DNA from: Parapedobacter pyrenivorans
Lineage (GTDB): Bacteria; Bacteroidota; Bacteroidia; Sphingobacteriales; Sphingobacteriaceae
Assembly (NCBI RefSeq): GCF_014636865.1
Contig: NZ_BMER01000002.1
Location: forward strand, 494,292-558,291
Length of the DNA: 64,000 nucleotides
Direction: 5' to 3'
Shown here: positions 8,315-47,875 of the stretch, piece by piece
How positions within the stretch are numbered: position 1 is the stretch's first letter
Layout: each line of letters starts with the position of its first letter
Position numbers and translations under genes: made by a program
The notes under the pieces: model-generated
The model's database searches: none
Seen by the model: only the letters and a program-made list of their open reading frames with translations
What the model was told of the DNA's origin: nothing

Positions 8315-8398
8315 GCCCGGATGGCGAAATTGGTAAACGTTGCGGTCTCAGAAGCCGTTGGGAGCAGTCCCTTGAGAGTTCGAGTCTCTCTCCGGGCA
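8315..8398 (+). tRNA. tRNA-Leu (anticodon CAG)
   Basis: 84-base class II tRNA. The acceptor arms GCCCGGA (8315-8321) and TCCGGGC (8391-8397) pair fully; base 8398 is the discriminator A, as usual for leucine. The D arm contains AAATTGGTAAAC. The anticodon stem GCGGT/GCCGT closes the loop CTCAGAA, giving CAG, which reads CTG. A long variable arm follows, then the T arm GAGAG-TTCGAGT-CTCTC. CCA is not encoded. Followed at once by an intrinsic terminator. Confidence 0.93.
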
Positions 8399-45055: not shown

Positions 45056-45739
45056 TTATTCTACTTCTTTACCGCCGTCTAGCTCGTCTTGCCATTTTTT
45101 CAGCTCATCAAACTTTCCATCCGCAGCAAGCTTAGCTTGTTCTGGCCAGGTATCTGTAACGGCCGTGTTGTATTGGTCGCCCGCTTCTGCAAGAATTGCT
45201 TTCAACTCTTCAGCAGATTTCGCTGCTACGTCGGCAAAGCCAGCGATACCGGCATCTGCCAATACCTCAGCGATCTTCGGACCAACCCCTTCGATAACGG
45301 TTAAATCATCAGCCTTGGCTTTCTCCTTTTTGGGGGCTTCAGCCTTTTCTTTCGCTTCAACCTTCTCTTTCTTTTCCGCTTGCTTCGGCGCTTCAGTAAC
45401 AACCTCGGCTTTAGCCGCTACCTTCTTGGCGGCTGGCTTCTTCTCAGCTACTTCCGCTTTGGGTTGTGTTGCAACCACTTCTTCCTCAAAAGGCAACACC
45501 GAAACAAAGGACTTGTTATTGGCTTTTTTGCGAAATACCACTTTACCCTCAATCAGTGCAAACAACGTATGGTCCTTGCCCATTCCAACATTCACGTCGG
45601 GGTGGTGTTTCGTACCGCGTTGGCGTACGATGATATTTCCAGCAACCGCGTGCTGACCACCGAATATTTTCACCCCTAAACGCTTACTGTGTGACTCACG
45701 GCCGTTCTTAGAACTACCCGCACCTTTTTTATGTGCCAT
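45056..45739 (-). CDS. rpmA: Ribosomal protein L27 with C-terminal helix-hairpin-helix extension
   Basis: 227 residues against about 85-90 for normal L27. Residues 1-85 are L27: [50 protein letters not shown]. It carries no N-terminal extension that would need cleavage. Residues 86-142 are a Lys/Ala/Glu linker resembling histone-like tails. Residues 144-187 ([21 protein letters not shown] and following) form a helix-hairpin-helix-like unit with the GVGPKIA hairpin, and the last 40 residues are acidic ([20 protein letters not shown]). L27 sits at the peptidyl transferase centre. The added domain probably reaches the ribosome surface or binds nucleic acid, which is inference. Codon use continues smoothly and there is no stop between the parts. 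Confidence 0.9.
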
Positions 45740-47404: not shown

Positions 47405-47440
47405 AAACGGTTGTCTTTTGAAAAAAGGCAACCGTTTTTT
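47405..47440 (+). terminator. Intrinsic terminator of rpsF-rpsR-rplI
   Basis: AAACGGTTG-T-CTTTT pairs with AAAAAGG-CAACCGTTT, one bulge, followed by six T. Confidence 0.9.
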
Positions 47441-47489
47441 ATTTGACACAACATGATGCCTTCAACTCCATGCGTTCATTCCCCGATTA

Positions 47490-47841
47490 GACCACCAACT
47501 CCCTACTTTCTCCTGCCTATTTCCTGCCATTTGCTATGCGCCAGCTAAGGCTCAGCTAACCTGTCGCTATGAAATTAATAGCCACCGCACGGCCACCGCA
47601 TAGCTGGGGTTTACATTACGGCAGGAGAATGGCGGGAGAAGTTCAAAAGAAAGGCAGAAGAAAACGGCCATCCGTAGCCAGAAGACGCCGCATCATGGGG
47701 GAGTCAGCTGGCTGTCACGCTGCGGTCACGTTGCTGTAAGGGTGCAAAAAACAGCTGTCACACAGGCAGCTCACAGCACTCATACCGCCAAGCCACCCGC
47801 AGCAGTCCGGCAGCGGTTTGGCAGCAGGTGCGGACGGATTG
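47490..47841. repeat. Degenerate noncoding stretch with repeated words at 11-bp spacing
   Basis: The 435-base gap between the rplI terminator and the next gene holds no convincing reading frame. It contains short words that recur exactly 11 bases further on: CCTGCC at 47512/47523; CAGCTAA at 47542/47553; GCCACCGCA at 47581/47592; GGCAGGAGAA at 47620 and GGCGGGAGAA at 47631; GTCACG at 47714/47725; CACAG at 47761/47772; and three units GCAGCAGTCCG, GCAGCGGTTTG, GCAGCAGGTGC at 47799, 47810 and 47821. Neighbouring units resemble each other while distant ones do not. A period of 11 cannot keep a reading frame, and the spacing is far too short for CRISPR. Cause and role unknown. Confidence 0.6.
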
Positions 47842-47875
47842 AATATTCCCGAGTTGTAAAATCACTAATCGGAAG

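Follow-up and report, generated by a model that had tools for sequence, protein, structure and literature searches.

Two adjoining mirrored modules with an 11-bp period after rplI belong to dispersed noncoding elements of the genus Parapedobacter

What is the stretch that follows rplI in Parapedobacter pyrenivorans, in which short words recur exactly 11 bp apart? The question was raised by an earlier note on the 64,000 nucleotides of DNA analysed here (the window). The words listed there were located at their positions: CAGCTAA at 47542 and 47553, GCCACCGCA at 47581 and 47592, GTCACG at 47714 and 47725, and GCAGC.G at 47799, 47810 and 47821. Autocorrelation confirmed the period. Between 47491 and 47841, the fraction of matching letters at lag 11 was 0.468 (z 9.2 relative to 2000 dinucleotide-preserving shuffles), and harmonics appeared at lag 22 (z 5.2) and lag 33 (z 2.95). 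When lags 1 to 60 were all tested, 0 of the 2000 shuffles equalled the observed lag-11 value, and lags 10 and 12 were flat. The decrease in similarity from lag 11 to 22 to 33 agrees with the view that neighbouring units are alike and distant ones drift. Over the wider span 47441-47875, the z values at these three lags were 7.7, 5.1 and 3.7. An extra peak at lag 43 in this span (z 3.7) is put down to a 10-bp step within the right module described below. In a scan with a 150-bp sliding window, 47440-47863 was the sole stretch of the 64 kb with a lag-11 value above 0.42. The hairpin of the rplI terminator (about 47405-47437, by self-match) precedes the stretch and is not part of it.

The description of the stretch as noncoding holds in that it contains no long open frame: no listed ORF of at least 60 aa overlaps 47490-47841 on either strand. 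The argument that 11 is not a multiple of three is invalid by itself, because 11-bp repeats can encode 11-residue repeats. A coding reading was also considered at two other loci (L014 and L059), where a mechanical ORF runs through the modules into a gene that we take to be thioredoxin-like; it is regarded as a chance open frame. No ORF of at least 110 aa is overlapped by 38 of the 63 elements classed by position. Rfam at gathering scores gave no match in the stretch, and its only report in the window was a tRNA at 8315-8398. As a separate observation, a 227-aa ORF on the minus strand at 45056-45739 of the window combines a presumably L27-like part, a linker rich in lysine, alanine and glutamate, and a helix-hairpin-helix-like tail.

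The earlier note took the stretch for one array of some 30 units. This is rejected, because each half aligns on its own to copies elsewhere, which lie in either orientation. Two adjoining modules of about 150-165 bp make up the stretch, each with its own mirrored layout. The left module (47504-47669, plus strand), characterised by GCTA and CCTGCC units, was delimited by an alignment with six other copies (A2) and by a profile (R2). It is a quasi-palindrome of 11-bp units, with a pyrimidine-rich outer 5' arm and a purine-rich outer 3' arm. The 5' arm (47507-47570) carries TTTCTCCTGCC and TATTTCCTGCC, followed by GCTA-bearing units 11 bp apart. The 3' arm (47578-47641) carries TAGC-bearing units, followed by GGCAGGAGAAT and GGCGGGAGAAG. 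The two arms pair in the predicted fold and in the register i+j=142 of A2.

The right module (47672-47832, plus strand) was delimited by an alignment of 15 copies without internal gaps (A3) and by a profile (R1). TGCNGT recurs at 11-bp steps in its 5' half, and the reverse complement, as ACNGCC/GCAGC units, occupies the 3' half. The 5' array (47709-47745) reads GGCTGT, TGCGGT, TGCTGT and TGC at 11-bp steps, and the TGC..T columns are invariant at these steps in A3. The mirrored 3' array (47754-47790) has ACNGC units about 11 bp apart, in the register i+j=157. The variable base of the mirrored units lies in columns 53/104 and 64/93 of A3, which covary. Terminal direct units, CGCAGCAGTCC GGCAGCGGTTT GGCAGCAGGTG (47798-47832), are conserved in A3 and form the right edge of homology; by eye, the copies part company just past AGGT. 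It should be mentioned that an inverted octamer, CCGATTAG/CTAATCGG, flanks both modules at 47483-47490 and 47865-47872. This enclosure may be due to chance, the right copy being in the flank of the neighbouring gene.

The two modules are neighbouring members of genus-specific, dispersed, noncoding Parapedobacter elements. Such modules adjoin one another in different combinations, and the species differ in which sites carry them. When 41 genomes were searched at the DNA level, the P. pyrenivorans genome and congeners gave similar stretches, the left and right parts matching separately. Among named records there were three matches, in Parapedobacter defluvii and P. koreensis. Profiles built from sequence alone gave 28 right-module copies (R1) and 37 left-module copies (R2) of at least 130 letters, in each case in seven of the nine Parapedobacter genomes. 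Left and right modules were found alone, together and in inverted order. In a family-wide search of 301 genomes with stricter filters, R2 matched in seven genomes of the genus only, and R1 in seven genomes of the genus and at one marginal place in another genus (G256, E 6e-4). This marginal match (L188, about 1551-1654) is a plain tandem repeat of 11-bp GCTGTCATCGT units, apparently without mirror symmetry by eye. A search of plasmid and phage collections in distant mode was negative at E 1e-3. A lag-11 excess is shared by all 65 copies, the smallest being 0.115 for right and 0.161 for left modules, which is partly built in because the profiles were derived from such sequences. In genome G002, nine places are 90-100% identical in a comparison that includes the query; they are many dispersed, near-identical, short noncoding copies, as a MITE would have. 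The two modules, the mirror symmetry, the dispersal over genome and genus and the side-by-side combination of modules were not foreseen in the earlier note. By eye, three adjoining modules (left, CTTCGG and CTTGGTTTGGT) follow one another in one and the same order in two species (L014, 2165-2753, and L026, 1789-2389). The adjacent genes differ, as if the three modules had been moved or put together as one block.

The same periodicity was also found in this genome and in congeners with units of other sequence. By eye, the unlike units of 11-bp stretches in the genus include TTACC/GGTAA, CTCCGCTG, CTTGGTTTGGT, TCGAGTGT and GTCCAC, among others. The P. pyrenivorans genome was scanned over 1.264 Mb, namely the window and three 400-kb stretches from the starts of contigs already known to bear copies. 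A score of at least 0.20 was reached by nine stretches of period 11, and by one stretch for eight other periods together (5, 7, 8, 10, 13, 14, 16 and 17). At a score of 0.13 this contrast vanished, with 15 stretches of period 11 versus 3 to 16 for each other period. Scores of at least 0.20 were also found once in 0.14 Mb of G003 and twice in 0.17 Mb of G001, and other genera of the family gave no stretch at 0.20 and four at 0.15 in 0.708 Mb. Neither R1 nor R2 matches G001 at E 0.01; its two stretches therefore share the plan and not the sequence.

Two further kinds of periodic sequence were observed. On contigs C3 and C4 of the P. pyrenivorans genome (L080 6118-6335, L106 5895-6114 and L074 2276-2436) there are runs of about 3-5 direct 11-bp units that end in TAGGGG (TTTCTAGGGG and the like). 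In appearance, these short runs are closer to direct repeats of the promoter type than to mirrored modules. In G014, a genome of another genus (L231-L240 and L064), 7-bp periodic stretches occur nine times in 220 kb at a score of at least 0.20; the P. pyrenivorans genome has one in 1.264 Mb.

Units are gained and lost singly. Two of the G002 places carry one additional 11-bp unit. Close copies differ by exactly one unit, which supports the local duplication of 11-bp units that had been supposed as the mode of growth. Gaps were counted in pairs at least 72% identical with strict gap costs. In 93 left-module pairs, the commonest gap was exactly 11 bp (15 of 32). Nine of these 15 lie inside the G002 group, and by reading of the alignments the 15 result from at least four separate events; the 1-bp gaps (9) are nearly all due to one copy. 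The 75 right-module pairs showed 2732 differences and 4 gaps of 1 or 2 bp. The share of right-module pairs with gaps varied with the cost, from 4 of 75 at the strict cost to 7 of 77 and 29 of 91 at milder ones, with many lengths. With a permissive aligner, 124 of 266 right-module and 226 of 299 left-module pairs had gaps, whose many lengths showed a local peak at 11. Since the count depends on the gap cost, the claim of a guarded length is softened: a length constraint on the modules seems suggestive rather than firm.

Orthologous sites were also compared. At the 3' end of clpP, the elements of G003 and G006 are alike at 39 of 43 positions in the 5' outer arm and at 20 of 27 in the 3' outer part. 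Their cores, of equal length and both 11-periodic, are alike at 33 of 85 positions without a gap. This is still above the shuffled value of 20.4 +- 3.9 and allows strong divergence in place of unrelated cores; they may have diverged rather than been exchanged. Among the eight clpP loci, a third version is present in G005, short remnants were seen by eye in G002 and G004, and no element was found in G000, G001 and G007. Upstream of a gene that is presumably an aquaporin gene, the elements of G003 and G004 differ by 11 bp in length, and the other six of eight loci have no element at a score of 0.15. After rplI, a diverged 11-bp stretch is present in one of eight other genomes and none in the other seven. 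The relative in G007 of the gene to the right of the window stretch is without an 11-bp stretch.

Left modules are clear quasi-palindromes and right ones are mostly weak. The left module of the window folds as one long hairpin (single-strand fold z -4.2), and the fold of the right module has z -1.65 on the plus and -1.07 on the minus strand. Twenty representative elements were also rated by a hairpin scorer in which G.T and A.C count equally. Scores of 14.7 to 33.6 were obtained for 19 of them, as compared with 7.8 to 10.5 for shuffled sequences; the remaining one, the right module at 47672-47832, reached 10.3 versus 8.6 +- 1.3. Scores more than 3 sd above 15 shuffles each were obtained for 27 of 29 left modules and 7 of 28 right modules. 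In A3, columns 53/104 and 64/93 form standard pairs of three types in 11 and 13 of the 15 copies, respectively. The covariation score of A3 was reached by 5 of 500 shuffles and its share of paired cells by one; the count of pairs in which both sides changed was reached by 221 and shows no excess. The corresponding numbers for A2 were 39, 11 and 441 of 500. Mutual information on the 28 right-module copies is dominated by subfamily structure, and the mirrored pair 60/89 (64/93 of A3) is third in the ranking. The covariation terms of RNAalifold were +0.34 on A3 and 0 on A2.

The explanation preferred here, held tentatively and as somewhat short of probable, is that the modules serve at the DNA level as arrays of phased binding sites. 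They would belong to non-autonomous elements that slippage and inverted copying reshape. The element would act as DNA, and a putative sequence-specific protein would bind once per 11-bp unit. Together with this protein, the mirrored arms might assemble into a regular complex, either wrapped or cruciform, akin to that of ParR with the 11-bp repeats of parC in plasmid R1. The elements would travel as non-autonomous passengers of separate, putative machinery. One-unit slippage and inverted template switching between the arms would change the units of an element together, and recombination or exchange between copies might do so as well. To judge from the sequences, with spacing kept while the letters change, this looks like an unusual way to lay out repeated protein-binding sites. 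The earlier note offered a phased protein-binding site or a structured RNA, and the former seems to us the better of the two. In its favour are the excess of period 11 over other periods, the dispersal and polymorphism of the sites, the rarity of gaps at strict cost, the matching arms and changed core at clpP, the invariant TGC..T columns and the balance of G.T and A.C given below. Several points stand against it. Within one genome the unit sequences are very unlike each other, so that several binding specificities or a shape-reading protein would be needed. Strict 11-bp spacing also suits A-form RNA, with a pitch of 11 bp, better than relaxed B-DNA, which has about 10.5 bp per turn. Most right modules, that of the window included, are weakly mirrored, the gap count varies with the cost, the clpP cores may have diverged, and pairs with a change on either side of the mirror show no excess. 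The limited power of the G.T/A.C test and the negative findings on a binding protein, a transposase, recurrent flanking genes and a target-site duplication are given below.

A mutational by-product without any binder is unlikely, but not strongly so. Slippage and template switching would regenerate periodic palindromes, which would spread passively with occasional duplication. The gains and losses of exactly 11 bp and the strongly changed clpP core of constant length are in its favour. The covariation of the two mirrored variable positions and the balance of G.T and A.C given below are as expected from inverted template copying. In the relevant passages of PMC8794818, template switching is described as able to create and repair inverted repeats. 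This explanation gives no reason why unlike units share a period of 11 instead of 9, 10 or 12. It does not account for the small number of indels in close right-module pairs, a number that carries the caveat of gap cost, nor for the stretches scoring at least 0.20 in Parapedobacter when 0.708 Mb of the other genera had none.

The reading as a structured RNA is less supported and is considered quite improbable. The transcribed modules would form hairpin rods that present a motif once per A-form turn, for protein or RNA packing. The agreement of the unit with the A-form pitch, the left-module fold, the clear self-complementarity of 19 of the 20 representative elements and the two covarying column pairs of A3, with their low number of matching shuffles, all speak for such rods. 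If an RNA stem is selected for, G.U should be tolerated in it more readily than A.C. The ratio of G.T to A.C was 50:49 in 28 right modules, 117:137 in the 29 left ones and 87:81 in the 20 elements of mixed kind (two-sided binomial 1.0, 0.23 and 0.70, respectively), with no excess scatter among the 20 mixed elements (chi-square 19.6 on 20). As controls, E. coli rRNA hairpins with the same scorer gave an uninformative 10:10, and ffs, ssrS and 16S helix 44 gave 6:4; with softer gaps, the latter ratio was 16:6 versus 98:88 in 18 elements. The balance argues weakly against an RNA hairpin, the power of the test being limited according to these controls. The weak fold of the right module, the empty Rfam search of the stretch and the occurrence of neighbouring genes in every orientation are further points against hairpin rods.

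The position of the elements relative to genes bears on another possibility, that they are BIME-like sites for topology or regulation, at which palindromes near gene ends bind a general factor such as gyrase, a nucleoid protein or a terminator factor. The elements are intergenic, mosaic, palindromic and lineage-restricted, like REPs and BIMEs as portrayed in part of PMC2817692, and the copy in the window sits between convergent genes. However, 63 of the 65 elements could be classed, and no clear bias for gene ends was seen: 9 are convergent, 5 divergent and 24 codirectional, and 25 overlap a mechanical ORF of at least 110 aa. The unit sequences also seem too varied for one general factor. A REP system driven by RAYT is rejected in view of the lack of an intact Y1_Tnp gene in nine genomes. 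The RAYT domain (Y1_Tnp, PF01797) has 0 matches in the P. pyrenivorans genome, and the nine genomes of the genus have one match, G007:C34:46216-46512, with three internal stop codons; the same search was positive in five of 14 control genomes. Taken together, a BIME-like role is very doubtful.

Other signs of mobility were sought around the copies. Among the nearest flanking ORFs of the 65 elements, the largest family has three members, which is the clpP site, and no larger recurrent family was seen; this comparison is not exhaustive for an autonomous parent. No binding protein and no transposase were found. No target-site duplication was evident by eye in the flanks of the G002 copies, and no alignable empty site was close enough. 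The arms of left-type modules are mirror-like over most of their length, and an exact terminal repeat is not defined.

An ordinary decayed minisatellite or a set of chance word pairs, for which it could be said that TRF finds only three weak 11-bp arrays (scores 35), is hardly credible in view of the z of 9.2 and the mirror symmetry, and is in our view refuted by the homologous copies dispersed over other loci and other species.

Among known systems, the elements are filed as a variant of dispersed intergenic repeats, the distinct feature being the 11-bp phase and mirror plan across unlike sequences. The statement that no such element was known agrees with the literature searched, as far as the genus is concerned: a literature search found no description of these elements for Parapedobacter, and a term search of the text available from a paper on the genus (PMC7500135) gave no passage on intergenic or transposable repeats. 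The search did lead to an analogue, the nearest one in print being BrickBuilt, a MITE of Porphyromonas gingivalis with 23-nt repeats. According to the sections of PMC4596501 that describe it, BrickBuilt is an intergenic, dispersed and host-restricted element of the Bacteroidota, made of tandem units, of which whole units are gained or lost between strains at conserved loci. In these respects the Parapedobacter elements are alike. The same sections (PMC4596501) give BrickBuilt 23-nt direct repeats inside a leader and a tail, and small terminal inverted repeats, whereas in the Parapedobacter elements the units have 11 bp and many different sequences and the arms are mirrored. REP/BIME systems with RAYT are likewise dispersed, palindromic, mosaic and lineage-specific in the account cited above (PMC2817692). 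REPs are, however, short palindromic units of 20-40 bp in the part of PMC3733652 that deals with them, and the modules here are about 150-165 bp long and phased every 11 bp, and the nine genomes of the genus gave no intact RAYT.

The third comparison is with R1 parC, which is one site per plasmid, adjoining the par genes. Its repeats are reportedly laid out as 2x5 around a promoter. Arrays of 11-bp direct repeats are found in both systems; those of parC are bound by the DNA-wrapping protein ParR, which needs at least two 11-bp repeats, as stated in an excerpt of PMC9426499. Unlike parC, the Parapedobacter elements have many chromosomal copies and mirrored arms, and no recurrent neighbour genes were seen. 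Lastly, quasipalindrome-associated template-switch mutation, as treated in portions of PMC7202029 and PMC8794818, could explain arms that change together. It is a process and not an element, and it yields no 11-bp period.

For the genus, the preferred reading as phased binding sites on DNA may be carried further, to a claim that is clearly unlikely as yet. Parapedobacter would then have a genome-wide centromere-like or DNA-wrapping system, in which dozens of chromosomal mirrored arrays with a conserved 11-bp phase are read by one or several fast-evolving, co-evolving DNA-binding proteins, the architecture being kept while the sequence is rewritten at an orthologous site. If the preferred reading holds, it is the spacing more than the sequence that is conserved: one plan would be realised in unit sequences as unlike as TGCNGT, TTACC, TCGAG and GTCCAC, and searches by sequence similarity would miss such elements. 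A lag-11 excess together with mirror symmetry could serve as a search rule for other genera. The dozens of phased arrays in one genus would form a natural set for the study of helical phase, protein-DNA assembly, slippage and inverted template switching.
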